Shown: positions 4,210 to 62,028 of the stretch, piece after piece
How the letters are laid out: every line of letters begins with the position of its first letter
Position numbering within the stretch: the stretch's first letter is position 1
NCBI GenBank assembly: GCA_036768485.1
Contig: JAVLUZ010000273.1
Span: 3,825,391-3,889,390 of the forward strand
DNA from: Mermis nigrescens
Taxonomy: Eukaryota > Nematoda > Enoplea > Mermithida > Mermithidae
Length of the DNA stretch: 64,000 bases
Reading direction: 5' to 3'
Notes under the pieces: generated by a model
Told to the model about the DNA's origin: nothing
Database searches by the model: none
The model's input: the letters and a program-made list of their open reading frames with translations, nothing else
Made by a program: the position numbers and the translations under genes

Positions 4210-4211
<2 letters not shown>

Positions 4212-5436
4212 ACATAAACGGAGGGGACTAGAAAAAGCTTAAAAAGCCCTATCTACAAATGTCACAAAATTTGCTAAAACTCAGAAATTTCCTAAACAAA
4301 GAAAAAATGAAAGTAAGTAAATCAAAGAAAAAACCTATCTGTGCCTAAAACTGCAAGATATGCTAAAAATCAGACTTTTTCTAAGCAATGCAAAAATCGA
4401 GGTATATTCTGCGGCCTGCCGAAGAAAGCAGCATCCTGTCGAACAAAGATAAAACATTGGGCTAGATAACTGAACCACTCACTCTGCAAAAGCAGATATC
4501 ACCATAGCTGAGTTGCGCCATGTTGCAATATTTTTCTGGGTCAAAAAATAGTAATTATGGTATGTTGGAAAAACGGCAATTTTCGACGTTTCTGATTGAA
4601 CACTGGTGCATACCCCTAATCTCCCAAGCCTAATGGTTATCAGTTTACATGGGCAGGAATGAAATCCGGTGGTCTTGTGCGATTAAACGCCAGAAGAGTA
4701 CTGAATGGACGCATGCATTATATAGAAATCACAGTCTTTCGTTGCGGTATCAAAAATAATCATAGGATATAACTTTTTGTAATATTTATCTAGCCACAAT
4801 ATCGAATAAATTAACGTTGCAAGTGATTAGCAAAAACACAGATTTGAGATTTATTTTATAAGCTTTATAATAAGCATTGGACACCATTCCAAGACGTAGG
4901 GGGTTTGGGGAGTATGCACCCGAAGGCAAAATACCCGACAAGAAAACGCAAATACCCAACAATACCTCCAGAATTCAATTTTTTAAATCTTTCTGCTCTT
5001 TTCGGGTTTTTTTGGTAGGTACCGATAGATAGAGCTTGAAAATAAACGTTCAAAAATGGTTTTATCTTCGCCATAGCACTATTTTTAAGGCCAATATTTC
5101 AATTTGAAAACCCTCCTCAGAATTTTGGAACCGTCCACTGTGTGGTTAACAATATAAGAAGGTTCACCTATTTTTTTCAGAGGCCGCAGAATATACTTCG
5201 ATTTTTGCGTTGCTTAGAAAAAGTCTGATTTTTAGCAGATCTTGCAGTTTTAGGCACAGGTAGGTTTTGTCTTTGATTTACTTAATTTCATTTTTTCTTT
5301 GTTTAGGTAATTTCCGAGTTTTAGCAAATTTTGTGACATTTGTAGATAGGAGCTTTTTCTAGTCCCCTCCGTTTACGTCCTTGATAATTCTTTGTTCCAA
5401 GTATATTTTACCTTTTTTTGTTCCATCGGAGCATTT
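4210..5436. mobile_element. Unclassified TIR transposon, non-autonomous (copy 1)
   Basis: Inverted arms of about 220 bp: GGAGGGGACTAGAAAAAGCT near 4221 mirrors AGCTTTTTCTAGTCCCCTCC near 5350. The right end continues through ACGTCCTTGATAATTC and ends GCATTTTTTCTTGC. The left end has lost its outer part to the (AT)n array. No coding capacity. The interior carries an older palindromic insert (about 4,870-5,160) that is also present in copy 2 at 46,231-47,528. In copy 2 the full terminus GCAAGAAAAAATGCTCC is seen after a TA, so a TA target duplication is possible. Fragments of the family occur near 49,905 and 60,675. Confidence 0.7.
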
Positions 5437-6490
5437 TTTCTTGCTAGCCCTTAATTAACGCCCGTCCCATTTTTCTCCACAAACTTTGCTGCAAAATAAC
5501 TCAAGAATGATGGAATCTTATAAAGCGTGCGAGTGTTCATTCGAAAGCATTGTCCAAGATCTGCAAGTTTATGTGCATTTTCTTTTATGTTAGTAGTGTG
5601 AAATTTGAAATATACTGTAACCTCTTTTTTTGTCCGCCGCATTGATCGTCCTGGGTTCCAGAATTTTTTGTTTCTCTGGTCAGGAATTTTTACGAGCTGA
5701 GGAGCTCATTCAGGGCTTTCTAACGGTATCTCAATAATTGAAATGCGGCTAATACCCTTTAAGAAATTTAAATCGAAAAATAAAGTCCCATTTTTGGACG
5801 CGCGCTCATAAGTGACAGCATGAAAAAGCGATTGTTTTTCTCTTGATGATACCTAGTATTATATCTTCATGACCTTTACTACCTTCAGAAACTGCTCAAA
5901 TTCTCTCTTAGAATTGTGCGTACGTACATACTACGCAATGGCGGATCCAGGATTTTCCTAAGGGAGGGGCGGTACCCCTAAGGGGGGTGGGGGTGGGACC
6001 CTTATGTATTTGGGCGGAAAAACTGCCCGTTTTTACCCGAATATCGCTCAAAAATAGTTAATTTGCGCATTATTTCGGGCCAATGGAGGGCGGTTGCCCC
6101 CATCCGTCCCTGATACTACCTATGTAAACCAGCTGCTTTACAGTCCAATTAGGTACATAGGTACCTATACCTATCTATATGTACCTTGTATGTATCTAAA
6201 CTAGAGAATCGCCTTGTAACAACATCAGACTAGATAGAGAACGTCAATCTCAAAAATTTTCCATGCAAAAATGGGATGTACACTTATTGACGAGCGTCCT
6301 GTATGTAAACTTATTAACGATAGTCCCAAAAATGGGAAATACAGTTATTAACGACCGTCCCAAAAATGGGACTTTTTTCTCACGTCCTACAGTAGCTAGA
6401 GTCACGAAAAAAATCAGGGAGACTTTTTGAAGGATGGGGAATTCGAATATGAATGAGATTTTGAATGAACTACCCTACACAAAGTGCCAA
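5437..6490. other. Segment absent from the paralogous repeat
   Basis: The inverted paralogue (46,190-46,235) passes directly from the TIR element into sequence matching 6,491 onwards, so about 1.05 kb is present here only. Its ends, CCCTTAATTA and TAATAAAGGG, are near-inverted, suggesting an insertion, though no clean target duplication is visible. It contains a hAT-like MITE (5936-6112) and several copies of ACGNCCGTCCCAAAAATGGG (near 5,460 inverted, 6,300 and 6,345). No gene seen. Confidence 0.45.
5936..6112. mobile_element. hAT-like MITE, 177 bp
   Basis: Starts CAATGGCGGATCC and ends GGATGGACC-like in reverse (CATCCGTCCCTG). It is flanked by ATACTACG (5928-5935) and ATACTACC (6113-6120), an 8-bp target duplication with one mismatch. 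The CAGTGGCGGATC-type terminus and 8-bp duplication fit hAT. No coding sequence. Confidence 0.72.
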
Positions 6491-6538
6491 TAATAAAGGG
6501 CAAGTACCCAAGTTTTGTTAGCAAAAAATAGTAGTTAT

Positions 6539-6802
6539 CATACGTGGGCAGCAAGAAAATTCTGGGGGGGTGCAAGATTTTTTTGAAGGTCGAAAAATGG
6601 CCTTAAAAATGGTGGTATGGCGATAAAAACACCATTTTTCGACGTTTCTCATCAAGCACTATCCATTGGCATCAAAAAATTGCGAAAAAAACGAAAAAAA
6701 TTTTCAAAAATTGAATTCTGGGGGGTATTTTGATTTCTGGGGGGGGTATTTTGATTTTCGGGGGGTGCATACCCCAAACCCCCCCCCCCACGCCCAGGTG
6801 TG
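6539..6802. mobile_element. CATACSTGGGC-family MITE with perfect 8-bp TSD
   Basis: Termini CATACGTGGGC and GCCCAGGTGTG are flanked by perfect GTAGTTAT repeats at 6531-6538 and 6803-6810. The interior has G/C runs around 'TTTCTGGGG'. The inverted paralogue near 46,195-46,215 holds the empty site (AAGTTAT once), which proves the insertion. 8-bp duplications and CA...TG ends suggest hAT mobilisation. Other members: 14,420, 15,645, 19,484; truncated at 54,750. Confidence 0.88.
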
Positions 6803-6810
6803 GTAGTTAT

Positions 6811-7080
6811 TCCTATCTTTGTCAGTGTTGTAGCGAATGTCATTAGGTACTGCTTCCATCTTAACAATTTATACTTGCATTGTGTATGAATTATATTCCG
6901 ACTCCGCGCGTTTGCAATATTATTTAGCTGAAGTTCGAAGAAAAATTATTTTCTGTGCTCAAGCTGGAATTCACTTATCGCTTCTGATTGTTGCTTACTT
7001 CGACCACGATGCAACTTCAACAAATAATATCACGTTTTGTCATTTTGCTTCTCGCTGACTCTTATTTAGTCCGATAAAGT
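6811..7080 (+). repeat. Segment shared in inverse orientation with 45,930-46,200
   Basis: From CCTATCTTTGTCAGTG through the GACTCCGCGCGTTTGCAATA region, it is closely similar to the reverse complement of 45,930-46,200. A frame of 73 codons (6837-7058) crosses it, but it has no recognisable motif and is not kept in the other copy, so I do not call a gene. It is one block of the composite repeat that also includes 4,210-5,436 and 8,166-9,324. Confidence 0.7.
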
Positions 7081-8165
7081 TGACTGCCAGGAGCAATGCA
7101 CTGGCTAATGGGTCTAAGAAACACGCATTTCAAAGTAAAATGCATGAGTCGTTCAAGTGGACATTTCTTTACAGTTGGGTAGATTGTTTAGCAAACGGGG
7201 CGCATTGATCTTCGCCCAATCGCTATGATTGAAGATAGCTAAATACATATACATATGTGGAAAATTTCTTGCATGTTATTGCGTGCTTGTTTCAGTAAAT
7301 TTTAAGATGATATTTATCACATTGCGTGTATGAATAATGTTGGTAAGCACTAACATAGTAGGTACAACAAGGTAGGTACTGCATCTAGGATTTTCACCCT
7401 AACTTTTACAAAAACCACCAAAAACATGTCAAAAATTTGCTCTTTGCACAAAAATGCGTTTTTTACGCTTTTTGTGTGGTCTATACTTTTATCTAAAAAA
7501 TATTCTATTTCACGTAACCTTGTGCATGAAAATCAATTTTCTTCGACCTTTCCGGCAGCTACATACAAAAGTCATTTTTAGTCGTCTTACTGTAATGATA
7601 TTTTGCACAGTAAAACTCCATTTGTTTATCCAATGCCATGCTAATTATCATGATCGCTGCTTCTATTTGAACCGCTTTTGTAAACGATTCATATCGACTG
7701 AAGAATTGCGATCCATGCACAAGGTTTCGTGAAACAGACTATAGAATAACTTTTGACGCAATATTTTTACTAAAAAATTTTGAAATTTTCAACAATTTTG
7801 TGCGAAAAAATCAATAAATTTCTATGACTTTAGCTAAAATTCGGCGCGAAGCGCCGGAAAAATTTGCGAAATCTTCTCGACTGACAAGACATTTAGAAGC
7901 TCGATTTACTGTATTTGTATATACAGTACCGCTCACAAATGAACGCCATTTTTTCGTGAAAGCTTCGTCAAGAATTTGCTTCTTTCTCATCAACCTCAAA
8001 ACAAAAAACAACCAGAAGAACTTTTTCGAGTTCTTCGAGCTTCCTTCTAACAAAACAGCACTTTAGAGATTACTCACTGGCATTATCGTCTGAGGGCACA
8101 AATTTTCTGCGGACAGTTGGCGAAAAAAGTGCTGTTATTTGCGAGGTTTCCGAAACTTATAAGTG
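7081..8165. other. No gene seen
   Basis: AT-rich sequence not matched in the inverse paralogue, where 45,310-45,925 differs. It contains the short palindrome GGCGCGAAGCGCC at about 7,842-7,855, a motif that recurs elsewhere in the window. Open frames at 7,811-8,066 overlap on both strands and show no family motif. Confidence 0.45.
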
Positions 8166-9324
8166 ACTACATACAATATAGTATTTTAAAGAAACAAGAC
8201 AGAAACCTGTTTAAAGCACCCCATTCTTGACTTTACACTCGCTTAATATTGGTTTAGACATACGCGATTTTGCTATGACATACACCCCATATAAGGCACT
8301 TTATTTTTATTCTATTGGACATATCCTGTCTTTTGAAAGGAGAAAGTGGCGAACGAAATTCAAACAAAGACATATTTTCCATCATTAAGAACATCGTAAA
8401 CTTTAAAAATCCGTACCGTATTCCCCATTGAGTGTAAAGAAATTCGGTTTAGTATAGTTTGTAGCTTTCGAGTTGTAGTACGTTTCTATGTGCAGAAATT
8501 TTGTTGCAAAAATTATTTGATATGATTTACCAATTAAAATTTGGGAAAAAACGTGTTTTTTCGCCCATTTTTCACATCTGATTTCGAACTTTACACCCCC
8601 ATAAATAACTCAATATTGCGTTTTTTAAATGCGGTTTGCTGCGATGTGTAGTTCCTGTAAGGCACTTTATTACTGCTGTATTTAATTTACCCTGACTCAT
8701 AAGCGGAAAAATTTGACAGAGAAATCTTAGTTAAAATCCGTTTTTTACACCATCCACTAGAGTGTAAACTTTAAACCCCAGGATCTAACTCACCATAGAG
8801 CGTAGAAGACTTTGCTTATATGCAGAATTTAGCCCTTGATCCGCTCTACATTCATGTCAGAAAACATTTTAAAAACTCATAACCGGAGTTAGTATCAGAC
8901 ATAAGCAGGTTGAAAACTCGACCAAAAGGTGCTTTTTCACTCCCAGATTTTCGCACTCTTTACACTGCCATTCAAGAACTAATGCTAATTTCAAAAAACA
9001 ATAAAATAGTTATCTGTAGAATTCATTCCTCTATAATCCTATGCTTTTTAATTGTTCGAGTCATCAATACTCAGTTGTCCACTAGCCGCAGTGAAAAAGG
9101 TCCGAAAATTTGGCCCATGTTATAACGTTACACAAAAACTTTACACCTTCTTTACACAGTCAGTTTTGAGTTTCAAGAAAAACAAAAAAACACAGGCAGG
9201 GAATTTTTTATTATCTCCTTTTAAAAAAACTGCGCCTTCCAAAAGTGTCTCGTTATAGCTTTAGTGGGTGCACAGGTGTTAGGGGTACCTAAGTATATTA
9301 TAGGTATGCGCTAATGCGCTACCT
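8166..9324 (+). repeat. TTTACAC-rich repeat, forward copy
   Basis: Contains many TTTACAC/GTGTAAA heptamers (for example near 8,233, 8,591, 8,747, 9,142). It ends in the near-palindrome AGGTATGCGCTAATGCGC followed by TACCTATGA (about 9,303-9,324). The reverse complement of 33,603-34,347 plus 44,838-45,300 matches it, but that copy is split by the Polinton dimer. The intact target of that insertion corresponds to 8653-8658 here. No protein evident, class unknown. Confidence 0.7.
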
Positions 9325-10255
9325 ATGATTTAACTTGTTTTGGACCGAATTCCGGTGCTTGAAAATATTAAGGTTTCCTAAGTATAGTGTAGCACAAGGA
9401 CAGAATTCAACAGCACGGAAATTCAACCGAGCTCAGCATCGTTAATTAAATAATTAATTTTTACAATATTTTTCGGACAGAAAAATAATGAAGCAATTAA
9501 AAAGCGACAGCATGGAGGATACATGCTGCCGACCGTCGTGTTACGATAATGGGGTAAAATCAAACAATGTAATTAAACAAGGGCACAAAGCCCTGCCAAA
9601 GGCATACAACTGATGCCAATTGGCACAAACACGAATGATTAAAAACAAAGCATACGGCGAAAAGAAGCGTGCACACTATGCAGGAAAACAAACAGACGAG
9701 CTCTGCAGCCAAGCAGATAAAAGAGGCACGTATGGAGTCTGCTCACGTACGGCGACAAAAAGAAAAAGGTACGCTCAGCGCGGAAGCTGGTGGAGAGGCT
9801 CTCAGGCTCAAAAACTAATTTTAAAATGTAAAATCTTAAAGTGTCATCAAAACTGCGCTCACACGCAGTTTTAACTGACGCGGAAAAAGAGGCGTAACAA
9901 CACGAACCAAGAGATATGAAAAGGATCTATGAATACGACAATAGGCCTATGGGCAAAAGCTTACAGTAAAGCATGTACAAACGAGACAGGCACAAATATG
10001 AGACACACAACATATGATCTTTTAACACACGTAAGATTTGATAACACATATACCAATGCGTACTCAAGTCACATTAAGCCTGAGTACCCATTTTCCAATC
10101 CCGGATTTTGCTTGAAAATATGTGTAGGAATGGAATAAAAAATATGATAATCTTTAGAGGGAAATGGTCCCGGGCGACTCACTTAAGCATTGCACTTAAC
10201 GGTCTTGTACGTGCGTATGGCAATTGAGCACAAGAATGTACATCTGGGGCAATCA
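9325..10255 (-). mobile_element. Truncated LTR of the Ty3/gypsy-like family
   Basis: Aligns by eye with the interior of the two full LTRs: 'AACTTGTTTTGGACC' here equals 11,909, and the ACAGCATGGAGGATACATGC block equals the one near 12,085. It continues to GTACATCTGGG near 10,236. Both LTR ends are missing. Strand is given as the element's coding sense. It shows that another insertion of the family once lay here. Confidence 0.75.
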
Positions 10256-12912
<2,657 letters not shown>

Positions 12913-31943: not shown

Positions 31944-32216
31944 CCCTTATTCTAGTCATTTTTCCCTCTAGTTTTTTGGCTGGCATGGCAGACAATAGAG
32001 ATTAAGATCAGGACAAGAAATTTTTGTCACAACCCCAATCTCAAACAGAAAAAATATGCACACCAACACAATAAAGTCAAAAAATGCACACAAACAGTGA
32101 AATATTAAAAATACACACAAACATTGTATGGTTACACAAAGTGGAATATTTTTTGAAAATTTCAGGCAGAAAATTGAACAATGTTAGCTCGGCCGGTCGT
32201 TCTGAATGACCTCCAA
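31944..32216 (-). other. Leader between 5' LTR and gag with candidate primer-binding site
   Basis: In the coding sense the LTR end TTTTACA is followed by TTGGAGGTCATTCAG. A PBS should start TGG next to the LTR, and TGGAGGTCATTC fits the position, though I cannot name the tRNA. Confidence 0.5.
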
Positions 32217-34353
<2,137 letters not shown>

Positions 34354-35107
34354 AGTAGTAAATCGGGTCTCCCTGGGCTGCAACACAAAGTATAGCCCGT
34401 GCTTAAGCATAGGCTGTGTTGAAGCATAGTCATGTGTTGAAGCATAGGCTATATGTTTTGTGTTGCTACCTAGGGGATGACGGCACACTATAGTTAACCT
34501 CAACTACGGGTATACTGGAGACTATTTTAAATTTGCGGATCAGGTCAACCAGGTATACTTTACACTATAGCATGAGTACCTATTTAACGCAGGGGGAGGG
34601 GGAACCATCAGAATTTTATTTTTTATGGGACAACTATGAACACCGCTTACCATACTAAATCCGTACAATATTCTAACTTGGGTATCAGTTGACCACTTTA
34701 CACTTTACACTCGAGTAGTTTACACCATATCATAAAACCGCTATAACTCATGAACCAATAGTTGAATCGAGCTGAAATGTTCAGAATGTAAAGACTACAT
34801 GTCAAAAATAATGTATATAGAAATTCGTGCACCGGCTTACTGTAGCTATGTTAAATCACGTATTTTTTGAACTAATGGCCGGATTGAGCTGAAATGTTCA
34901 GAATGTAAAGACTACATGCCAAAAATATTGTATATGGAAATTCGTGTACCAGCTTATTGTAGCTATGTTATAACACGTATTTTTGAAGCAACGGCCGGAT
35001 TAAGCTTTAATTTGAGAAACAGCATATACGCAAGACACAAATTCTTTACACGTTGTCTTACTGTAGGTATACTGTAGCTTACTGGATTTTCTATATCTCA
35101 CAAACTA
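34354..35107. repeat. Outer terminal inverted repeat, unit 1
   Basis: About 750 bp. The first 125 bp fold into a hairpin (arms 34,370-34,397 and 34,447-34,476, sharing GCAACACAAA/TTTGTGTTGC). Then come TTTACAC motifs near 34,690, and three tandem units of about 120 bp around GCTGAAATGTTCAGAATGTA. Ends near GGATTTTCTATATCTCACAA. Confidence 0.85.
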
Positions 35108-35924
35108 ACAGTCAAATAAAGCTGAAATTCAATAAATCAGATGTATATGAGTCAAAAATAATGTACGCAAAATATAGTGCATGGGGTTACTGTAGGTATG
35201 CTACAACATGTATCCTTTAATTTGCCGAGGTGGAAATTTGAGAGATTCAACAAACACAATAGAACAGTGCACCAGAACTACTATAGGCAACATTTAGTAA
35301 CCCATAGTGTGGAAAAGGTGGTTATGAAAAAGGTTGCAAAGGGTCCACAGTCTCGCACAGATCTCCCCAACCTAAAGCTAGAGGATCGCTCTGTAGACTG
35401 CAGATCTTTTGTTTGAACACACTGAAAACGTGCATAATACTTAATAAGATTAAGGGACAATAAAACATGAAGATACGGGTTTAACGAAAAAATCAGACAT
35501 ATTTTGTAAGATTTGGTAATTATTTTGTAGAATTTGGAAACTTTTTTGTAAAATTTGGAAATTATTTTGTATAATTTGGAAATTATTTTGTGAAATTTGG
35601 AAACTTTTTTGCAAAATTTGAAAACTTTTTGTAAAATTTGGAAATTATTTTGTAAAATTTGGAAACTTTTTTTGTAAAATTTGGAAACTTTTTTGTAAAA
35701 TTTGGAAATTATATGTAAAATTTGGAAATTTTTTTATATGGTTAAGTATATGTTTTTTTGTAGAATTTGGAAACTTTTTTGTAAAATTTGGAAATTATTT
35801 TGTAGAATTTGGAAACTTTTTTGTAAAATTAGGAAATTATTTTGTAGAATTTGGAAATTATTTTGTAAAATTTGGGAATTATTTTGTAAAGATTAGAAAT
35901 TTCAAAAAAAAAAAACAAAAGTAT
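35108..35924. other. Spacer between outer TIR and integrase with 21-bp minisatellite
   Basis: About 35,220-35,470 is conserved in unit 2 (43,700-43,970). Then comes a minisatellite of about 21-22 bp at roughly 35,500-35,905 built on TTTTGTAAAATTTGGAAATT, shared with 43,440-43,690 in inverse sense. The frame 35,177-35,416 has no motif. No gene called. Confidence 0.7.
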
Positions 35925-36979
35925 TTACAGTTTGACAACCGTGGAAACCCATGAGTCAAATTTTGATGGGTACCCCCGCCAGTGGACCAGATATTTGGTC
36001 TTATTATTCCCTCTACGCGTATTTAGAATTTTATCAACTATCAAAAGCTCACCTTTCTTTACATGGATTTTTTGAAGTTCCGGCTCATAAAAGACACCCT
36101 CCTATGTCTCACCCATTTGATCTTGCAGAGTGTAAACAGGCGGTATTCTTGCATATTTTTCTTTAATTGTGAACCACTCTTCTGTCCAATTAGGCCAAAA
36201 GCCATTTTCAAATGTGCGTTTTACTTTACTTATTCGTACGTTATCTCCAACATTAAATTTAAATATAATAGGTTGTCTAATGGTTCGAAATACTTTATTC
36301 AGAATTTCCTGCTCATTTTTTAATCCACATTTGCCGGAAATGTCCCTATGGTTCGATGGTACAAATTGTTATAATTTTCCAACTAATCAGCCAAAACGTC
36401 AATGTACTTATATGTATTTTTGGCTGTAAAATATCTCCACATTTTTTCCTTTAGAGTGCGGTTAAAACGTTCTACAACACTAGCTTTTAGTTCACTTTTG
36501 GTTGTGAAAAAGTGGATATCCTGAGTTTTTAGAAAATTTTGAATTTCTTTGTTGATAAATTCTTTTCCTGCATCTGTCTGCAATTTATATGGCATTCAAC
36601 CGGTTCTAAAAATTTCCTGGAATGCTTCTAGAACCGCTTTTAAAGTTTTGGTTTTGAGTGGCAAAGACCATGCGTATTTTAAAAACTAATCAATACAATT
36701 TAGTAAAAATTTATACCCACCTTTGAATTTGCTCAATGACTGCAAATCAACAAGATCAACCTGCCATTGCTCATCAATACCAATTACTAGAACTTTATTA
36801 TGTGTGAAATGCTTTTTGGCTGGTTTATGTAATGTATATGTGGGCTGCTTAGCCAGTCATGCTTTCACTTGCAAAAGTTTTAAATTAGGTAACACTTTTT
36901 TGCTTCTTTTGTATAACTGATTTGCCCCAGAATAACCAGTCTTGCTATTATAATACAAGTTTTTCAATGTTCTATCCAT
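35925..36979 (-). pseudogene. Polinton integrase with chromodomain, unit 1
   Basis: ATG at 36,979; stop 35,925-35,927. In order: helical N-terminus, core with the first Asp region, then KLQTDAGKEF (second Asp) and ASVVERFNRTLK (catalytic Glu with the usual ER.NRT), about 33 residues apart. The C-terminus is an open chromodomain: LLIVDKILNTRR, KYLVHWRGYPSKFDSWV, with the aromatic residues expected of a methyl-lysine cage. Defects: Trp-to-stop in AWLAKQ (TGA, plus-strand 36,857-36,859), other stops near 36,383, and a frameshift near 36,595-36,605 also found in unit 2. A retrovirus-type integrase would insert the element and make the 6-bp duplication; the chromodomain may guide targeting. Confidence 0.85.
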
Positions 36980-37342
36980 TTTGGTTATATTAAATTAATG
37001 CAATGACAATACTTATAGATGAATGAGCAGGATTTTTTGGGGTTTCATGTTTTATTATTTTTTGGGGTTTTTTATTTTTTTAATCATAAATAATACTTAT
37101 TAATTCAATTTTTCCTTTTCTTTCTCCAAATCTTGAGCTATATATTGCCTTATAACGCTGTTTCCTGCATCCTGAGGTGATCGGTTATTTTCTATACATC
37201 GTGGACACATTTGTACAGTAAAATATGTACGCCCTGAGTTTGTTTCAAAACAATCGTTTTCCGAAATGGGTCTTTGACAATAAAAACATAATTGAATCAT
37301 GACAGGGAACATCGGCCGTTCTAAGTTTTGCCCACAAAGAGC

Positions 37343-39343
37343 TAGGGATGCAACGGATATCCGGATCCGGATCCGGATCCGTTATTATCCGGTATTATTT
37401 TGGATCCGGATCCGGATCCGGATCCGCTATTTTGAAAAATTAAGATCCGGATCCGGATCCGGATCCGGTATTTTTAAAAAATATGATCCGGATCCGGATC
37501 CGGATCCGTTATTTTTACAGTTTAAAACGGATCCTAAACGGATCCAAGAGATTATGATAAAATATCATTAAACCTTGAATTGTATTGAAGAAACAACATC
37601 ATTATGAGACAAAAGCTTCACTTTGATTGACTTAATACTCAAATTCAATGACAGGCAAATTGTATTTAAGAAACAGCAGCTTTTTTGCAACCAAAGAAAA
37701 CGGTAGATTGCTCAAAGTCATAAGCTCAACTAACGGCTCATCTATATCAATTGATCTTGCATCATCGTTATTCCATTTTTTACCCTCAAATCGTACATAA
37801 GTTAATTCGGAATTTTCTCATAAAAATAAAACAGGAAGTAAGCATGCTTCCATTGTCATTTGCACTTTTTGTTTTTCATGTTTCAAAGCACTCTTTTCGC
37901 AATCTGCGCGTTTTTCTGCAAAGGAAAGTAGACATGCCTGACGGGAATCTTCTACAATCTGTGCTTAACAAGAATACCTCCTTCCTTTTCTTCGATCTGC
38001 TGGGACTCCTCTGCTTTGAACTTTTTATAATCCGCCGCATGCTTAGTTTACGGACGCTTTTTCATACAGGTGGTACCAGTGTTTTTTTGTACTCGGAAAA
38101 GATTTTTCCCGATGTACAAAAACTTTTCGGGACCGTCTTTGTACATGTACAAAGATTTTTGGGAAGACAATTATTTCAGAAAAGGACTGAAATTCGCAAA
38201 AATTTTCGGCGCTTTGCGCCGAAATGAGTAACTGTGTGTTGTATATATCTTTATAATGGCAGGAATAGGATTTCAAAAGGAAAAATGTCAAATTTTTCGG
38301 CGCTTCGCGCCCTTTTAAGATGATAGTGATTTTCGCTCTTGGAGAAGCAGAAATTTGCTATAATACACTACCAAAAGTCGAGCAACTCTGTTTTTAACAC
38401 TACTAAAATCGCTACTGTACCATATTATAGTACCCAAAAATTTGTGTGTACAAAATGTACAAAGATTTTTGGGAAGACAAAAACTGTAAAAAGGTGTAAA
38501 ATTCCCAAAAATTTCGGGCGCTTCGCGCCTAAATGAGTAATTATTTGTCCTATATATCTTTAAAATAGCAGAATTTGCATTTAGAATGGAAAGATGTCAA
38601 ATTATTCGGCGCTTCGCGCCGTTTTGAGACAATTTTTAATAATTTTTGGCGTCAGAAACCCAGAAATTAGATAAAATACGCTATCAAAGATCGAAAACCC
38701 TGTTTTACCACACTAAAATCGCTACTGTACTATAGTACACAAAAATGTGCATGTACTAAATGTACAAAGACTTTTGTGGACCATCTTTGTACATGTATAA
38801 ACGGACCTTGTCCAAAAAAACACTGGGTGGTACCCCTCCACCGCTTCTGGAAAGCTTTGCTGCGCAGAGATTACATTGCCATTTAGATTCGTTATCAGCT
38901 AGCGTAAAATAGTTTCAGATAGGACTAGAAATGCTTTTTGGCATTTCCGATTAATGAGAGGAAGACGCCAGATTCGCAGTTTTTCAAGCTACAGCCGAAT
39001 TAAGATCAATCTGGACCACTGAACCAAGCTCATGCAGCTTTGCTTATTTCATCATCCTATAGTAATTCTGCTTCTGAAACTAGTGAGCACCGTACTTGCG
39101 AACAAACATTTAGGTATTAAAAAAATTAAGCGTTCATAATGCATATTCATGGATCCGGATCCGGATCCGGATCCGTTATTATCCGTTATTTTAATAATTA
39201 AAGATCCGGATCCGGATCCGGATCCGTTATTTTAAATTTTATGGATCCGTATCCGGATCCGGATCCGTTATTTTGAATTGTACGGATCCGGATCCGGATC
39301 CGAATCCGATATTATTGGAAAACCCGCATCCGTTGCATCCCTA
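37343..39343. mobile_element. hAT-like transposon, 2,001 bp, non-autonomous
   Basis: Perfect 14-bp termini TAGGGATGCAACGG/CCGTTGCATCCCTA and a perfect 8-bp duplication CAAAGAGC (37,335-37,342 and 39,344-39,351). Unit 2 shows the empty site (CACAAGGAGCTATTGG near 42,010-42,025, inverse). Subterminal arrays of GGATCC/ATCCGG occur at 37,360-37,540 and 39,150-39,310. On the minus strand about 37,630-37,800 reads IDIDEPLVELMTLSNLPFSL, resembling a hAT transposase segment after the BED finger, so it is probably a deletion derivative. Another MITE is nested inside (38,077-38,825). Confidence 0.9.
38077..38825. mobile_element. hAT-like MITE nested in the hAT-like element
   Basis: Ends CAGTGTTTTTTTG and CAAAAAAACACTG, flanked by perfect GGTGGTAC (38,069-38,076 and 38,826-38,833). 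749 bp. The interior has three imperfect tandem units containing TTTCGGCGCTT(T/C)GCGCC and GTACAAAGATTTTTGGGAAG. Non-coding. Confidence 0.92.
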
Positions 39344-39520
39344 CAAAGAGCTATTGGCGGTCTAATCAACCTGCCATATGGCTTCCTTTCCTCATCACTA
39401 AAAGGATATTTCTTAATTTCAGTCACTTCCTCCATCATCGAAAAGATTCCTAATATTTGGGAATGCTACTCATATTTATAGACTTACTTTATAAATATTA
39501 AAACAAATTACAAAAAGTAA

Positions 39521-40036
39521 ATGCAATCCTTAAAAATGCTTTTTGAGCATCCTTTCACGTGTATAGTTTCTGGACCATCAAAGTCCGGGAAGACATCCTT
39601 CATTCAACAAATAATTCAAAATAGAGAAAGGCTCATAAATACTAAAATATCAAAAATCTGGTGGTCTTATACAGAGAATCAACCATTCTACCAAAAAGTA
39701 AAAAACGTCACATTTGTAGAAGATTTTCCAGATTTTAATCGCATTAAGCAATATAGTCCAACACCACAGTTAGTGGTGTTGGATGATTTAATGCAAGAAA
39801 GCAAAGGCAAGCCACAGTTAATTCAGCTCTTAACTTGTGGTTTTCATCATTGGAATGCCAGCCTTATTCATGCTGTTCTCAATTTATTTTTTGATGGCCT
39901 TCAAACTTCGCGAGTGAATTCAGATTATATAGTGCTGCTTAAAAATCCAAATGATAAACTGCAAGCACAGGTTTCGGCACGCCAGCTTTATCCTTCGAAT
40001 TCAAAATATTTCTTAGAAGCCTTTATTGACTGTTAG
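39521..40036 (+). CDS. Polinton packaging-type ATPase, unit 1 (open but truncated)
   Basis: Open frame of 171 codons. FEHPFTCIVSGPSKSGKTSF carries the Walker A at residues 18-25; TPQLVVLDDLMQ carries Walker B at 84-90. The segments LLTCGFHHWNASLI and SDYIVLLKNPNDKLQ follow the pattern of the A32/FtsK-HerA-type genome-packaging ATPase in Mavericks (HH.N.S, YIVL.KNPRDK, ARQ.YP). Family members continue for roughly 40 more residues past EAF.D; here the stop comes at EAFIDC, where the TIR begins, so the C-terminus appears lost. It would drive DNA into capsids in a complete element, but there is no capsid gene here. Opposite strand to the other two genes. Confidence 0.83.
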   Translation: MQSLKMLFEHPFTCIVSGPSKSGKTSFIQQIIQNRERLINTKISKIWWSYTENQPFYQKVKNVTFVEDFPDFNRIKQYSPTPQLVVLDDLMQESKGKPQLIQLLTCGFHHWNASLIHAVLNLFFDGLQTSRVNSDYIVLLKNPNDKLQAQVSARQLYPSNSKYFLEAFIDC

Positions 40037-41330
40037 TTTGTGAGATATAGAAAATCCAGAAAGCTACAGTATACCTACAGTAAGACAATGTGTAAAGAAT
40101 TTGTGTCTCGCGTATATGCTGTTTCTCAAATTTAAGCTCAATCCGGCCATTTGTTCAAAAAATACCTGTCATAACATAGCTACAGTAAGCCGGTACACGA
40201 ATTTCTATATACATTATTCTTTGCATGTAGTCTTTACATTCTGAACATTTCAGCTCAATCCGGCCATTAGTTCAAAATATACGTGTTATAACATAGCTAC
40301 AGTAAGCCAGTGCACGAATTTCCATATACACTATTTCTAACATGTAGCCTTTACATTCTGAACATTTCAGCTCAATCCGGCCATTGGTTCATGATTTATA
40401 GCGGTTTTATGATATGGTGTAAACTACTCGAGTGTAAAGTGTAAAGTGGTCAACTGATACACAAGTTAGAATATTGTACGGATTAAACATGGTAAGCGGT
40501 GTTCATAGTTGTCCCGTAAAAAATAAAATTCTGATAGATTCCCCCTCCCTGCATTAAATAGAAAAATTAAACATAGTTAAAAAAATTAAATTGCATAATT
40601 AAACATATAGATTAAACATATAGCCTATGCTTCAACACATGACTATGCTTCAACACAGCCTATGCTTAAGCACGGGCTATACTTTGTGTTGCAGCCCAGG
40701 GGTTGACGGCACACTATAGTTAACCTCAACTATGTTCATACTGGAGACTATTTTAAATTTGCGGATCAGATCAACCAGGTATACTTTACACTACAGCATG
40801 AGTACCTATTTAATGCAGAGGGAGGGAAAATCTATCAGAATTTTATGTTTTATGGAACAACTATGAACACCGCTTACCATACTAAATCCGTACATTATTC
40901 TAACTTGGGTATCAGTTGACCACTTTACACTTTAAAGTCGAGTAGTTTACACCATATCATAAAACCGCTATAAATCATGAAGCAATGGACGGATTGAGCT
41001 TAACTATTCAGAATGTAAAGACTACATGTCAAAAATAATGTATATGGAACTTCGTGCACTGGTTTACTGTAGCTATGTTATAACACGTATTTTTTAATTA
41101 ATGGCCGGATTGAGCTGAAATGTTCAGAATGTAAAGACTACATGCCAGAAAAATGTATATAAAAATTCGTGTACCGGCTTACTGTAGCTATCTTATAACA
41201 CGTATTTTTTGAACCAATCGCCGGATTGAGCTTAAATTTGAGAAACAGCATATACGCGAGACACAAATTCTTTACACATTGTCTTACTGTAGGTATACTG
41301 TAGCTTTATGGATTTTCTATATCTCACAAA
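40037..41330. repeat. Central TIR pair and dimer junction
   Basis: 40,037-40,700 is the ATPase-side TIR of unit 1; 40,701-41,330 is that of unit 2, inverted. At the junction TTTGTGTTGCAGCCCAGG runs straight into GGTTGACGGCACAC. The last bases of a normal end (AGACCCGGTTAACTACT) are missing. The adjoining inner hairpin arm of unit 1 is replaced by about 55 bp of AT-rich sequence (40,568-40,625). Only one terminal loop is present for two units. Confidence 0.85.
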
Positions 41331-41846
41331 CTAGCAGTCAATAAAGACTTCTAAGAAATATTTTGAATTCAAAGGATAAAGCTGGTGTGCTAAAACCTGT
41401 GCTTGCAGTTTATCACTCATATTTTTGAGCAGCACTATATAATCTGGATTCACTTGCGAAGTTCAAAGACCATCAAAAAATAAATTGTGAACAACATGAA
41501 TAAGGCTGACATTCCAATGATGACAACCACGAGTGAAGAGCTGAATTAAGTGTGGCTTGCCTTTGCTTTCTTGCATTAAATCATCCAACACCACAAAATG
41601 TGGTGTTGGACTATATTGCCTAATGTGATTAAAATCTGGAAAACCTTCTACAAATGTGACGTTTTTTACTTTTTGGTAGAGTGCTTAATTCTCTGTATAA
41701 CACCACCAGATTTTTGATATTTTAGTATTTATGAGCCTTTCTCTATTTTGAATTATTTGTTAAATGAAGGATGTCCCTCCAGACTTTGTTGGTCCAGAAA
41801 CTATACACGTGAAAGGATGCTCAAAAAGCATTTTTAATGATTGCAT
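41331..41846 (-). pseudogene. Polinton ATPase, unit 2 (dead copy)
   Basis: Same length as unit 1 (516 bp from the equivalent ATG to the equivalent stop). The Walker A region reads GPTKSGGTS: the catalytic Lys is Gly. The next Gln codon after the P-loop (in F-Q-Q) is TAA. Walker B VVLDDL survives. Other substitutions add stops. Encoded from the central TIR outward on the minus strand, mirroring unit 1. Confidence 0.85.
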
Positions 41847-41931
41847 TTACTTTTTGTAATTTGTTTTAATATTTATAAAGTAAGTCTATAAATATGAGTA
41901 GCATTCCCAAATATTAGGAATCCTTTCAAAG

Positions 41932-42260
41932 ATGGAGGAAGTGCATCAAATTAAGAAATATGCTTTTAGTGATGAGTAAAGAAGCCGTATGGCAGGTCAA
42001 TTAAACCACCAATAGCTCCTTGTGGGCAAAACTCTAGAATGGCCGATGTTTCCTCTCATGATTCAATTATGTTTTTATTGTTAAAGAGCCATTTCGGAAA
42101 AAGATTGTTTTGAAACGAATTCAGGGCATACATATTTTACTGTACAAATGTGTCCACAATGTATAGAATATAACCGATCATATCAGGATGCAGGAAACAG
42201 CATTATAAGGCGATATATAGCCCATGATTTGGAGGAAGAAAAGGAAAAATTGAATTATTA
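41932..42260 (+). pseudogene. Small Cys-rich Polinton protein, unit 2
   Basis: Homologue of the split gene in unit 1, here without insertion. ATG 41,932 (MEEVHQIKKYAFSDE), then a Glu-to-stop change (GATGAGTAA) and a Gln-to-stop change right after CFYC. The second Cys pair (CPQC) remains, and it ends at TAA 42,258-42,260. It gives the empty site for the hAT-like insertion. Confidence 0.78.
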
Positions 42261-42377
42261 AGTATTATTTATGATTAAAAAAATAAAAAACCCAAAAATA
42301 TAATAAAATATAAAACCAAAAAAATCCTGCTCATTCATCTATAAGTATTGTCATTGCATTAATTTAATATAACCAAA

Positions 42378-43435
42378 ATGGATAGAACATTGAAAAACTT
42401 GTATTATAATAGCAAGACTGGTTATTCTGGGGCAAATCAGTTATACAAAAGAAGCAAAAAAGTGTTACCTAATTTAAAACTTTTGCAAGTGAAAGCATGG
42501 CTGGCTAAGCAGCCCACATATACATTACATAAACCAGCCAAAAAGCATTTCACTCACAATAAAGTTCTAGTAAGTGGTATTGATGAGCAATGGCAGGCTG
42601 ATCTTGTTGATTTGCGGTCATTGAGCAAATTTAATGGTGGGTATAAATTTTTACTGAATTGTATTGATATGTTTTCAAAATACGCATGGTCCTTGCCACT
42701 CAAAACCAAAACTACCAAAGCGGTTCTAGAAGCATTCAGGAAATTTTTAGAACCGGTTGAATGCCATATAAATTGCAGACAGATGCAGGAAAAGAATTTA
42801 TCAACAAAGAAATGCAAAATTTTCTAAAAACTCAGGATATCCACTTTTTCACAACCAAAAGTGAACTAAAAGCTAGTGTTGTAGAACATTTTAACCGCAC
42901 TCTAAAGGAAAAAATGTGGAGATATTTTACAGCCAAAAATACATATAGGTACATTGACGTTTTGGCTGATTTGTTGGAAAATTATAACAATTCGTACCAT
43001 CGAACTATAGGGACATTTCTGGCAAATGTGGATGAAGAAAATGAGCAGGAAATTCTGAATAAAGTATTTCGAACCATTAGACGACCTATTATATTTGAAT
43101 TTAATGTTGGAGATAATGTTCGAATAAGTAAAGTAAAACGTGCATTTGAAAAAGGCTTTTGGCCTAATTGGACAGAAGAGTGGTTCACAAATAAAGATAA
43201 ATATGCAAGAACACCGCCTGTTTACACTCTGCAAGATCAAATGGGTGAGACATTGGAGGGTGTCTTTTATGAGCCATAACTTCAAAAAATCTATGTAAAG
43301 AAAGGTGAGCTTTTGATTGTTGATAAAATTCTAAATACACATAGGAGGAATAATAAGACCAAATATCTGGTCCACTGGCGGGGTACCCATCAAAATTTGA
43401 CCCATGGGTTTCCACGGTTGTCAAACTGTAAATAC
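42378..43435 (+). pseudogene. Polinton integrase with broken chromodomain, unit 2
   Basis: ATG 42,378. Residues 70-80 (EQWQADLVDLR) hold the first catalytic Asp at 75. YKFLLNCIDMFSKYAWSLPL follows, as in Maverick integrases. A frameshift near 42,760-42,775, identical to unit 1, separates this from KLQTDAGKEF (second Asp) and VVEHFNRTLKEKMW (catalytic Glu). The frame 42,761-43,279 then runs openly through FNVGDNVRISKVKRAF (SH3-like) and PPVYTLQDQMGE to TAA 43,277-43,279. The chromodomain continues beyond this stop (LLIVDKILNTHRR, KYLVHWRG) and loses frame after WRG through a missing G. Apart from these breaks it is the better preserved copy of the core. Confidence 0.88.
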
Positions 43436-43439
43436 TTTT

Positions 43440-44087
43440 GTTTTTTTTTGAAATTTCCAATCTTCACAAAATAATTTCCAAATTTTACAAAATAATTTCC
43501 AAATTCTACAAAATAATTTCCAAATTTTACAAAAAAGTTTCCAAATTCTACTAAACACATATACTTAACCATATAAAAAAATTTCCAAATTTTACAAAAT
43601 AATTTCCAAATTTTACAAAAAAGTTTCCAAATTTTACAAAAAAGTTTCCAAATTATACAAAATAATTTCCAAATCTTATAAAATATGTCTGATTTTTTCG
43701 TTAAACCCGTATCTTCATGTTTTATTGTCTCATAATCTCATTAAGAATTATGCACGTTTTCAGTGTGTTCATACAAAAGATCTGCAGTCTACAGAGCGAT
43801 CCTCTAGCTTTAGGTTGGGGAGATCTGTGCGAGACTGTGGACCCTTTGTAACCTTTTTCACAACCACCTTTTCCACACTATGGGTTACTAAATGTTACCT
43901 ATAGTAGTTCTGGTGCACTGTTCTATTGTGTTTGTGAAATCGCTCAAATTTCCAGCTCGGCAAATTAAAAGATATGTGTTGTAGCATACCTACAGTAACC
44001 CCATGCACTATATTTTGCGTACGTTATTTTTGACTCGTATACATCTAATTTATTGAATTTCAGCTTTATTTAACTGTCAGTTTGTGA
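43440..44087. other. Minisatellite and spacer, unit 2
   Basis: 21-bp repeats (AATTTCCAAATTTTACAAAA) at 43,440-43,690, fewer than in unit 1. Then comes the spacer conserved with 35,220-35,470. No gene. Confidence 0.75.
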
Positions 44088-44831
44088 GATATAGAAAATC
44101 CAGAAAGCTACAGTATTCCTACAGTAAGACAATGTGTAAAGAATTTGTGTCTTGCGTAAATGCTGTTTCTCAAATTTAAGCTCAATCCGGCCATTGGTTC
44201 AGAAAATACGTGTTATAACATAGCTACAGTAAGCCGGTACACAAATTTCCATATACACTATTTTTGGCACGTAGTCTTTACATTCTGAACATTTCAGCTC
44301 AATCCGGCCTTTAGTTCAAAAAATACGTTGTATAACATAGTTACAGTAAGCCGGTGCACGAATTTCCATATACATTATTTTTGACATGTAGTCTTTACAT
44401 TCTGAACATTTCAGCTCGATTCAACTATTGGTTCATGAGTTATAGCGGTTTTATGATATGGTGTAAAGTACTCGATTGTAAAGTGTAAAGTGGTCATCTG
44501 ATACCCAAGTTAGAATATTGTACGGATTTAGTATGGTAAGCGGTGTTCATAGTTGTCCCATAAAAAATAAAATTCTGATAGTTCCCCCTCCCCCTGCATT
44601 AAATAGGTACTCATGCTGTAGTGTAAAGTATACCTGGTTGACCTGATCCCCAAATTTAAAATAGTCTCCAGTATACCCATAGTTGAGGTTAACAATAGTG
44701 TGCCGTCATCCCCAAGGTAGCAACACAAAGCATATAGCCTATGCATCAACTTATGACTATGCTTCAACAAAGCCTATGCTTAAGCACGGGCTATACTTTG
44801 TGTTGCAGCCCAGGAGACCCGGTTAACTACT
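44088..44831. repeat. Outer terminal inverted repeat, unit 2
   Basis: Inverse of 34,354-35,107, with the same hairpin (GTAGCAACACAAAGC at about 44,716 against CTTTGTGTTGCAGC at about 44,795) and the terminal GGAGACCCGGTTAACTACT. Directly followed by TAGGGG 44,832-44,837. Confidence 0.86.
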
Positions 44832-44837
44832 TAGGGG

Positions 44838-46230
44838 CTACACGCTGCAGCAAACCACGTTCAAAAAAAACGCAATATTGAGTTATTTATGGGGGTGTAA
44901 ATTTTGAAATCAGACGTGAAAAATGGGCGAGAAAACACGTTTTTTATCTAATTCTGATTGGTAAATCATATCAAATAATTTTTTCAACAGAATTTTTGCA
45001 CATAAAAACGTACTACGACTTGAAAGCTACGAACTGTACCAAAACCGAATTTCTCTACACTCAATGGCGAATACGGTACGGATTTTTAAAGTTTACAATG
45101 TTCTGAAAGATGGAAAATATGTCTTTGTTTGAGTTTTGTCCGCCACTTTCTCCATTCAGAAGTCAGGAAAAGTCCAATAGAATAAAAATAAAGTGCCTTA
45201 TATGGGGTGTATGTCAAAGCAAATCGCGTATGTCTAAACCAATATTAAGCTAGTGTAAAGTCAAGAATGGGATGCTTTAAACAGGTTTCTGTCTTGTTTC
45301 TTTCTGCCAGCTTCTTCGGTTATGAGTTGGGGACATGATTCTCAAGTCTGTAAATGAACCTAAAACCAAATTCGATATGCAATTTTGGCGCGTGTGTTTA
45401 CACTCAACAGTTCAGTAAAGTGGTTTAAACCAATGTTAATTTATCCTTACAAAATTATGGAGACTTACTATTTTCATAAAAGTTGGTCGTAATATCGAAG
45501 CAATATTAAAATTACGATTCTGAATAAAATCCTTTTTACACACTACATATTAATCTTCATTTTAGAGCCTTGCAGAAACCTTATTTTTTCCTTGGGACTA
45601 GAAATTTTCAAGGAATCAAGTGTGAGAAGTCAATTAGACACATTTTTTTACACAACAGTGGTGTAAACTGTTTTACACCTAATGTTAATTTGTCATCAGA
45701 CCATTGTTGAGACGAGATGTCTTTATAAATGTTGATTGTAATATCCGCGTAATATCAGATTTACGAATCCGACTAAAATCTTCTGTGCATTTTGTTTATG
45801 TAAGTAAACACTGCATATTAACACTTGACCTAGAGCCTTGCAAAACCATAATATTTTTCTTAAATTAGAAAAAACAAACAATAAATGAAGTGTGAGATGC
45901 CAGTTGGGCGCGTTTGTTTACAATGAACTTTATCGGACTAAATAAGAGTCAGCGTGAAGAAAAATGACAAAATGCGAGATTATTTGTTGAAGTAGCATCA
46001 TGGTCGAATTAAGCAACGATCAGAAGCGATAAGGGAATTCCATCTTGAGCACAGAAAATAATGCTGCTTCGAACTTCAGCTGAATAATACTGCAAACGCG
46101 CGGAGTCGGAATATAATTCATACACAATGCAATTATAAATTGCTAAGGTGGAAGCAGTTCCTAATGACATTCGCTACAACACTGACAAAGATAGGTATAA
46201 CTTCTATTTTTTGCTAACAAAAAGTTGGGT
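44838..46230 (-). repeat. Composite repeat, inverse copy, right part
   Basis: 44,838-45,300 is the reverse complement of about 8,200-8,652, and 45,930-46,200 of 6,811-7,080. 45,310-45,925 has no match to 7,081-8,165; it is rich in GTGTAAA/TTTACAC and contains two units around CTTGCAGAAACC/CTTGCAAAACC spaced by about 265 bp. No gene. Confidence 0.68.
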
Positions 46231-48226
<1,996 letters not shown>

Positions 48227-51890: not shown

Positions 51891-52735
51891 TGATGCTATA
51901 ACATAGGCAATTTTATAAGATAGACATGGTATGAGATACTATGTGCAACAAGATAAGCAATGCTATAAGATAGGACGTGATATAAGATACTCTGTGCTAC
52001 AGGATAGACAATACTATAAGATAGGACGTGATACAAGACACCCCGTGCTACAAGATAGGCAAATGCTATAAGATAGAACATTATAAAAATACTCCGTGCT
52101 ACAAGATAGGCAATGCTATAAGATAGGAAGTGATATAAGATACCCCAAGCTGCAAGATAGGCAATGTTATAAGATAGTATGGGATATAAGATACCCTGTG
52201 CTACGACATAGGCAATGCTATAAGATAGGTTTGGTATAGATACCCTGTCTGTGCCATAACATGCAGTGATATGAGATATGAGATACCATCAGCTATAACA
52301 TATCATGTGATATATGACACCCTTGCTACAACTAACAAAAAATTTTTAAAACATCAAAAATATGGTTTTACCGAAAAAATTTTCCAAAACATACTAAAAC
52401 ATCAAAAATATGGTTTGACGAAAAAAATTTTCCAAAACATCCCAAAACATCAACAATATGGGTTTTATTAAAAAAATTTCCAGAACACCCCAGAACATCA
52501 AAAATATGATTATGGCTAAACAATTTTCAAAACCATTCCGTAACGTCAAAAATATGGATTTGATCAAAAAAATGGTTGACAAAAGACATTTTAAAAAAAT
52601 CCAAAAAATAAAATATGGTTTGTACCAATAATTTTTTAGAAAAATATCCCAAAAACATCAAAAGTCTTGAAAAATAAAAAATACAAGAGACATATTAATT
52701 CCATATAGCTATCAGGCCTAAGTTCAGCCCGGTCA
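51891..52735. repeat. Two degenerate tandem arrays
   Basis: 51,891-52,260: about 60-bp units on GCTACAAGATAGGCAATG and CTATAAGATAGGA. 52,325-52,660: about 57-bp units on AACATCAAAAATATGGTTT and AAATTTTCCAAAACAT. The 52,240-52,735 part recurs in direct orientation at about 57,050-57,530 (both begin CCCTGTCTGTGCCATAACAT and end near CTATCAGGCCTAAGTTCAGC). Confidence 0.8.
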
Positions 52736-59497: not shown

Positions 59498-60632
59498 AAG
59501 CTGACACTAGAGTGCGCAACATAAGAGCGCCAACATTAGAGTGTCAACATTAGAGCATGCGACATTAGAGCGCAGCAGCATTAGAGCACAGCAACATCAG
59601 GGCGCATGACAATAGAGTCAGTGACATTAGAGCACAGCGACAGTAGAGCGTGCGACATTTGAGCGCGCAAAATTATAGCACATGACATTAGAGCTTGTGA
59701 CATTTGAGCGCTCAGCATTAGAGCATGCAACATTAGAGCACTCGACATTAGAGCGTACGGCATTAGAGCACAGCCATAATAGAAGTTTTTCACACAACAT
59801 TACAAGATTTTTATGCTAATAGGGCAAAGTTAATTACCTACACATGAATATCTCAGTATCAGGTAGTGATAAATGCATGTGGTTTTTTTTGTAAAACAAT
59901 GAACAGACTTTTGAATTCTTTTGACCAAAGTAGAGGAGAATGGGAAATCTTAGAAAAATACAACAAAGACATTTTCTGACTGAGTTTGGGATGGGCAATT
60001 CACATTTGAAAGAATGAGGTGGCGGTTAACATTTTTGACCGAGTTACAGGCTGTTGAAGTTCATTTGTTTATGGATGGGTGAAAGGCAAGAAGCCTGAGA
60101 TAAATGGAGCGATAATTGTGGAGCAAGTGAAGCAACCAAAGCAATTTTTGCTCCATTTGTGCCTCAGGCTTAGCCCATGTCTGGCACTAATCTGAATCCG
60201 CAAGCAATTGCAGTCGCCACAAACTAAAAACTGAAAAATATTCACTGCACTTTAATATCAGCACTCTAATGTTGTGCGCTCTACTGTCACATGCTCTAAC
60301 GTCACGTGCTCTTATGTCGTGTGCTCTAATGTTGCGTGCTCTAATGTCCCGCGCTCTAATGTTGCGCACTCTAATGTCGCACGCTCTAATGTTGCGCACT
60401 CTAATGTCGTGCTCTCTAATGTTGTGCGCTCTAATGTTGCATAGCTCTAATGTCACGCGCTCTAATGTTACTTGCTCTAATGTCATTGCACTATAATGTC
60501 ACACACTCTAATATTGTTGTGCTCTAATGTCATTGCGCTCTAATGTTGCATGCTCTAATGTCGCGTGCTCTAATGTTGGCGCTCTAATGTTGGTGCTCTA
60601 ATGTTGTGCGCTCTAATGTCTGCATGCCTAAA
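59498..60632. mobile_element. Fold-back-like element: inverted minisatellite arrays
   Basis: Left array 59,498-59,785 repeats (G)ACATTAGAGCGC with a period of about 15-16 bp; right array 60,246-60,632 repeats GCGCTCTAATGTT, its reverse complement. A 460-bp non-repetitive middle separates them. Long inverted ends made of short tandem repeats are the structure of Foldback elements. The Ile-Arg-Ala-type frames on both strands are by-products of the repeat. No flanking duplication could be fixed. Confidence 0.6.
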
Positions 60633-61375: not shown

Positions 61376-62028
61376 CCCCCTCCCCACTCGCATTTCAGTA
61401 GTACTGCTATGTTATAACTTGTGAAAAAGTCGTCCTATCTTTTCTACTTAATGGTACCGTTTTCTGCAGCTCAAGCAAGGACCAGGAAGTCGAAGGAAGG
61501 GAAGTCAAAGGACCGTGAAGTCAAATTTATATATACACACTCCTTTTGTGCTCAAGTTCAGTTGCATAATGTGTCTGAGCAAGGACCGGGAAGTCATATT
61601 CATGAGTTTTCAGCAGCAGCAGATAGCCTAGTAGTTATACGTGGTACCCTGACGAGTAGTGCTATAATGTAGACAATGGTTAAGCATAGGCAGTGCTATA
61701 AGATATACCATGGTTAAGGATAGGTAGTGTTATAAGATATACAATACTTAAGGATAGGACATAGTTGAGGAGTGGAAGGGTCAACATTGGCACAGTGCCA
61801 ACAAGATTAAACTAGGATTAAACTAAGACTAGATTAAAACTAGACTAAACCCGAACTAAGATTAAAACTAGACTAAACCTGAATTTAGTGTAAACTAAGA
61901 TTAAAGTGAGCATAGTTGTAAAGTACATACTATTGTGCTAAACTATGGCTACCCAGCTAAAACTGCCTGGGGGAGGGGAGCCCCCAACGCAGACCCCTAC
62001 AATACTTATTAGCAGTGGTCCGCTCTTG
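61376..62028. other. Simple and degenerate repeats before the right capsid module
   Basis: GCTATAAGATATAC units near 61,690-61,745, like those at 51,900. ACTAGACTAAAC/GATTAAAACT repeats at 61,790-61,910. No gene. Confidence 0.55.

Follow-up and report, generated by a model that had tools for sequence, protein, structure and literature searches.

Polinton/Maverick elements carry (AGT)2//(ACT)2 or (AG)3//(CT)3 ends, AGTAGT//ACTACT being the commonest end motif of vertebrate Mavericks, and they are flanked by 6-bp target-site duplications (TSDs) and are expected to use protein priming; intact vertebrate elements measure 12.7-24.6 kb (excerpted text of PMC8097293). Their gene set includes capsid proteins and a protease (excerpt of PMC11071308), and their protein-primed replication has been deduced from the polymerase gene and the end motifs (excerpts of PMC6431247 and PMC8097293). 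Here we analysed a stretch of 64,000 nucleotides from a contig of the nematode Mermis nigrescens, referred to below as the window, in which positions 34354-44831 are an inverted dimer of an internally deleted Polinton/Maverick, with two mirror-image units fused end to end. The locus shares with Polinton/Maverick the AGTAGT//ACTACT ends, the 6-bp TSD, long terminal inverted repeats (TIRs), an rve-type integrase and a Pox_A32-like packaging ATPase, whereas each unit is about 4.1 kb long, has no room for polymerase and capsid genes and carries a truncated ATPase, and the two units form a palindrome. The dimer entered the genome as one unit, and its origin is best explained, with a probability that we put at roughly 0.6, by fold-back priming at a subterminal hairpin followed by integration of the resulting dimer.

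Internal deletion combined with inverted dimerisation is known from other protein-primed linear replicons, namely the hairpin and palindromic-dimer deletion derivatives of the yeast linear plasmid pGKL1 and the duplicated-end defective genomes of adenoviruses. These are free molecules, whereas the dimer described here is an integrated fossil. Excerpts of adenovirus reviews report left-end DNA in incomplete particles and make no mention of inverted duplications. Fold-back priming at short inverted repeats yields hairpin-capped and then palindromic DNA (excerpt of PMC7999016), and a related logic has been described for short interrupted inverted repeats in chromosomal DNA (excerpt of PMC10766183). 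The present locus has in common with fold-back priming and inverted amplification of the origin-dependent inverted-repeat amplification (ODIRA) type a junction at a pre-existing short interrupted inverted repeat, but differs from ODIRA-type chromosomal amplification in that the substrate is a mobile element's natural terminus, and in that the product bears an integration mark of the element's own kind. Ginger transposons share a Gypsy-like integrase and TIRs, but have TSDs of 4 bp (TDD-4 and TDD-5: 5 bp), TIRs measuring about 40-270 bp and, in Ginger1, TGTNR ends (excerpt of PMC2836005); with its 6-bp TSD, the dimer was not assigned to this group. No relatives were found in viral_contigs, DNA pattern search included, or in prokaryotic genome_contigs, no other copy of the element appeared among the 60 longest self-comparison matches listed for the window, and no Polinton inverted dimer was found among the titles and abstract beginnings listed from open-licence PubMed Central.

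Architecture of the inverted dimer

Self-alignment resolved arm 1 (34354-37344 plus 39340-40561) and arm 2 (44831-42013 plus 42026-40806) as inverted copies with 92-93% identity, bearing out the two mirror-image units proposed in the initial annotation. From outer to inner, each unit comprises a 768-bp integrase-side TIR with a subterminal hairpin, a 21-bp tandem array, the integrase, a small gene with CxxC pairs in its translation (judged by eye), the packaging ATPase and the ATPase-side TIR. The two units had also been described as sharing one terminal segment at 40700. A single central hairpin is indeed present, but the units do not meet symmetrically, 121 nt having been lost on the arm 1 side. 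The features are as follows.

34348..34353, + strand: left TSD copy TAGGGG (self-alignment, related target)
34354..34370, + strand: left outer tip AGTAGT..., 17 nt beyond the main stem, absent at the centre (fold, motif scan)
34371..34477, + strand: left subterminal hairpin with outer arm, loop and inner arm (fold, z -4.45)
34354..35121, + strand: L1, integrase-side TIR of arm 1, 768 bp by match to the other TIR copies
35500..35901, + strand: 21-bp tandem array of arm 1, 19 copies
35931..37000, - strand: integrase pseudogene of arm 1 (homologue matches at 35931-36778; arm-to-arm match), its start near 37000 being approximate and set as the counterpart of the arm 2 ATG
37335..37342, + strand, second copy at 39344-39351: 8-bp TSD CAAAGAGC of a nested insert
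37343..39343, strand not assigned: hAT-like insert with TIR TAGGGATGCAACGGAT, arm 1 only
39521..40036, + strand: packaging ATPase (Pox_A32-like) of arm 1, cut at the TIR edge
40021..40561, - strand: R1, ATPase-side TIR of arm 1, outer part deleted
40562..40613: AT-rich filler of 52 nt in place of 121 nt
40614..40700, - strand: single central subterminal hairpin segment, common to both units
40698..40700: switch point from the outer arm to the sequence after the inner arm
40701..41346, + strand: R2, ATPase-side TIR of arm 2, without its own tip or hairpin
41334..41825, - strand: packaging ATPase pseudogene of arm 2, with 3 stops, cut at the same place as in arm 1
42378..43384, + strand: integrase pseudogene of arm 2
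43452..43685: arm 2 counterpart of the 21-bp tandem array, with 11 copies
44064..44831, - strand: L2, integrase-side TIR of arm 2, with subterminal hairpin and ...ACTACT tip
44832..44837, + strand: right TSD copy TAGGGG (self-alignment, related target)

Central junction and subterminal hairpins

At 40682-40720, the outer hairpin arm TTTGTGTTGCAGCCCAGG passes directly into GGTTGACGGCAC, the sequence that follows the inner arm (with one base different from L1 and L2) and with which arm 2 starts; the 17-nt tip is missing, exactly as the initial annotation had described. The bases that distinguish the outer from the inner arm are of the outer type through 40697, and the subsequent AGG (40698-40700) is common to both arms, which places the switch at the outer end of the main hairpin stem. 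The central hairpin segment, 40614-40700, is in the normal orientation relative to arm 1, and 12 nt of the inner arm (AAACATATAGCC) are retained on the arm 1 side. A single spacer copy thus lies between the arms and the switch coincides with a pre-existing inverted repeat, as expected of a fold-back-primed inverted dimer. We read the centre as the product of one template switch at this position.

The 121 nt lost from the arm 1 side are equivalent to 34459-34579 and comprise most of the inner arm together with adjoining TIR. Copies of the word ATTAAACATA lie in or at the filler that replaces them, at 40566, 40598 and 40611; the third runs into native sequence. One-sided loss beside a palindrome centre, with locally copied filler, is a mark of end-joining repair of a broken palindrome. 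By these sequence features, one side of the palindrome centre was later broken and resealed with repeated filler, and the centre has been revised at least once.

Folding supported the proposed hairpin at each outer TIR end: the left end gave z -4.45, with 1 of 200 shuffles folding as well, and the right end z -3.34, with 2 of 200. In the left centroid fold, the continuous main stem begins 17 nt from the tip, the same length that is missing from the centre.

Coding remnants and a probable earlier internal deletion

For the integrase, Pfam rve matched two pieces at 20.9 and 17 bits, both below the cut-off of 32.6, and tblastn gave 64% identity over 218 amino acids to homologue P0049, an entry annotated with rve and a chromodomain. 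The integrase piece at 42761-43279 had 209 homologues, the best at 70% identity among the 120 listed and P0049 next at 68%; a retroviral-type (rve) integrase, as in Polinton/Maverick, is present on this evidence. The ATPase matched Pox_A32 with an E-value of 0.0008, short of the cut-off and second to RNA_helicase at 0.00063, while its 47 homologues reached 70% identity at best and 3 of the 5 scanned passed the Pox_A32 cut-off, consistent with the packaging ATPase of Polinton/Maverick. A search of solved structures returned 5 matches with E-values of about 1, all to cytochrome P450.

The ATPase is cut in both arms at residue 164-165 of about 201 (numbered by homologue P0001), where the ATPase-side TIR begins; 14 of the 15 homologues aligned, from the 47 found, run past the stop of the window protein. 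The cut falls in a near-identical run, CTTTATT-GAC versus CTTTATTTGAC in L1. Given this shared end point of the ATPase, an internal deletion at short homology is likely to have occurred before dimerisation, taking with it any sequence that lay between. Accounting for the space in each arm left no protein-primed family B polymerase, although no polymerase profile search of the short broken frames was made, and we therefore file the element as a non-autonomous deletion derivative. Nor were capsid and protease genes found by the same accounting and a Pfam scan of 4 of the 5 open reading frames of at least 100 amino acids in the dimer, one of these four lying in the hAT-like insert.

The truncation is shared, but later damage is not. 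In the tblastn alignments on which this comparison rests, integrase frameshifts near 36323-36356 occur only in arm 1 and those near 42731-42749 only in arm 2 (integrase stops were left out of the tally). The ATPase has 3 stops in arm 2 and 0 in arm 1. Its differences between the arms are spread 10/17/11 over codon positions 1/2/3, affecting 28 codons non-synonymously and 5 synonymously, and nothing in this pattern points to purifying selection after the separation of the arms. Because the frameshifts differ and the ATPase differences are distributed in this way, the parent does not appear to have been long dead at dimerisation, and that candidate history was set aside.

Proposed fold-back priming and alternative origins

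The starting molecule would be a linear extrachromosomal Polinton of about 4.1 kb with two TIRs, an integrase, the small gene and the already truncated packaging ATPase. At its ATPase-side end, the 3' strand would fold back at the subterminal hairpin, the 17-nt tip would be trimmed, and the paired 3' end would prime synthesis back through the element, giving a duplex that is hairpin-capped at one end and retains a normal terminus at the integrase end only. Putative protein-primed copying from the integrase-side terminus, round the hairpin and back, would then yield a linear inverted dimer with two like ends, which an integrase of conjectural source would insert as one unit with a 6-bp TSD. In the order of steps that we infer for the cell, both arms would decay afterwards, arm 1 would gain the hAT-like insert, and the centre would be cut one-sidedly and rejoined with filler. 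Fold-back priming is favoured because one switch within AGG at the outer end of the stem explains the centre, with all preceding distinguishing bases of the outer type; the normal orientation of the hairpin and the 12 nt of inner arm on the arm 1 side are as one fold-back requires. The interpretation offered in the initial annotation is accordingly supported in part, in that single-unit integration holds and the fold-back is favoured rather than established. That account did not include the earlier internal deletion, the later revision of the centre or the hAT-like insert; the shared ATPase cut, the difference between left and right TIRs and the later one-sided deletion with filler are new.

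The four TIR copies differ at 9 two-against-two substitution sites (gapped columns left out) and 1 indel, all grouping L1 and L2 against R1 and R2; of 4 three-state columns, 3 fit the same grouping and 1 pairs L1 with R1. Five of the 9 sites are clustered at 34747-34768 and may represent one conversion event, leaving about 6 events if the cluster counts once. A star-like history, with all four TIRs identical at dimerisation, is not supported by these 9 of 9 sites. By this pattern, either the two TIRs of the parent had already diverged a little, or the dimer went through a period of replication in dimeric form.

Several observations weigh against fold-back priming or limit how far it can be pressed. 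It rests on a single locus, most of the inner arm is missing from one side, which prevents the complete hairpin from being read there, and the final sequence is alike for intramolecular fold-back, intermolecular annealing, or joining plus deletion. When 531 further stretches of 137 nt from the window were folded, 12 equalled the left end, 8 of them overlapping AT-dinucleotide runs, and 16 equalled the right end. Although the hairpin is evident, its energy is thus shared by other sequences, and it is the junction that singles it out. The tip had been described as unpaired, which agrees with where the stem starts in the centroid fold of the left end. Both minimum-energy folds and the right centroid, however, show weaker pairing of tip bases with the interior, so that the folding program does not return a cleanly unpaired tail of 17 nt. 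A difference between left and right TIRs is not expected if both are freshly copied in each round. Finally, the arms differ at 96 of 2132 sites (4.5%) in the outer segments and at 101 of 1408 (7.2%) in the inner ones (Fisher p 0.0009; the 21-bp array, the hAT-like insert and short stretches between segments are omitted), an inner-half excess that the fold-back model does not itself predict. Mutation or repair near the palindrome centre, or conversion between the outer arms, is a possible cause.

The same junction is predicted by intermolecular single-strand annealing, in which two resected linear molecules would pair at their hairpin arms, the tails would be clipped and the gaps filled, and the head-to-head dimer would integrate. 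Annealing of inverted repeats near yeast breaks, with clipping of non-homologous 3' tails, is described in the excerpted text of PMC6103520, and the route would be workable between sister copies having the same ATPase truncation. In that text, however, intermolecular annealing was seen mainly with a 1-kb spacer and fold-backs with a 12-bp spacer; the hairpin arms here are only about 49 nt apart by the coordinates of the initial annotation, and the loop is partly self-paired, which argues against annealing between molecules. Two different parents are not indicated either, given the uniform grouping of the TIR sites. We consider this origin unlikely, though it deserves to be taken seriously.

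Slightly less likely still is a tip-to-tip joining of two ATPase-side ends. The outer and inner arms would form direct repeats across such a join, and recombination or slippage between these 18-bp arms would remove the tips and leave one hairpin, the same product as observed; that the centre was revised at least once is compatible with joining plus deletion. This scenario needs an extra step, however, and neither inner tip has left a trace at the centre. Recombination would also be free to switch at any point along the arm, whereas the outer variant in fact persists to the last AGG.

More doubtful again is the possibility that hairpin-ended deleted Polintons form a self-maintaining satellite lineage of palindromes with two integrase-side origins, which would integrate repeatedly and use the hairpin as a fold-back device for end repair or copying. 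The resemblance of L1 to L2 and of R1 to R2 would then have arisen during replication as a dimer.

If fold-back priming is correct, the locus is the fossil of a folded-back end, and its sequence would be evidence that a free linear intermediate exists whose 3' end is accessible. Two further implications would be that one type of end suffices for Polinton integration and that Polintons, as is said of other protein-primed replicons, produce defective inverted genomes. The signature to seek in eukaryotic genomes would be a single subterminal hairpin, a missing tip, two like ends and one TSD.

Integration of the dimer as one unit

The dimer starts with AGTAGT at 34354 and ends with ACTACT at 44826-44831, the (AGT)2//(ACT)2 ends of Polinton/Maverick, and is flanked on both sides by a perfect TAGGGG, a TSD of the 6 bp typical of these elements; the chance that two random 6-mers from the window are identical is about 0.0006. 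When the left flank, one TSD copy and the right flank were joined by script, they aligned to the reverse complement of 8480-8830 with no gap at the target; this related, unoccupied site has CAGGAA at the place of TAGGGG and a 2-nt gap about 20 nt to the right. Within 40429-40940 there is neither AGTAGT nor ACTACT, so that the centre is without tips; the motif copies at 40423 and 40941 belong to an internal TIR word that is also present at 34714. Because of the TSD, the tipless centre and the contiguity of the unoccupied related target across the site, we conclude that the dimer entered the genome as one unit. The initial annotation had claimed such an integration between TAGGGG repeats, with the same integrase-side terminus at both outer ends, and L1 and L2 with their AGTAGT//ACTACT tips confirm this; the inner ends of independent insertions, against which it had cautioned, are not seen.

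Mobile elements commonly insert into or beside one another, but two independent insertions in opposite orientation are hard to reconcile with the single TSD pair, the contiguous related target, the lack of inner tips and the identical ATPase-TIR junction in both arms, and a chromosomal duplication of one inserted element would not recreate the integrase-side tip exactly at the second TSD copy; both are rejected as very improbable.

The flanks are part of a larger host repeat, diverged and mosaic, whose relatives lie at 4127-12911, some in one orientation and some in the other. Around the dimer, the host repeat spans 32216-34353 and 44838-47601.

Decay after dimerisation and other features of the window

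The later insert at 37343-39343, whose features are hAT-like, is about 2.0 kb long, has an 8-bp TSD and is missing from arm 2. The 21-bp arrays differ between the arms at 38 of 295 sites and by one 164-nt gap. Inverted duplicates are a known long-read artefact, but a hairpin read or chimeric join is rejected here, strongly disfavoured and the least probable account of all, because the arms are 92-93% identical (4.5-7.2% divergent by segment), have different integrase frameshifts, array lengths and outer flanks, and have the hAT-like insert in arm 1 only.

The hAT-like insert itself has GGATCC-rich arrays near both ends and a 141-nt direct repeat of 82% identity at 38180-38320 and 38489-38629. 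Elsewhere in the window, 59504-60631 contains two 15-bp minisatellites, separated by under 1 kb, whose units ACATTAGAGC and GCTCTAATGT are complementary, and 51893-52229 is a 17/51-bp minisatellite of ATGCTATAAGATAGGCA units, with a similar-looking array at 61658-61758.

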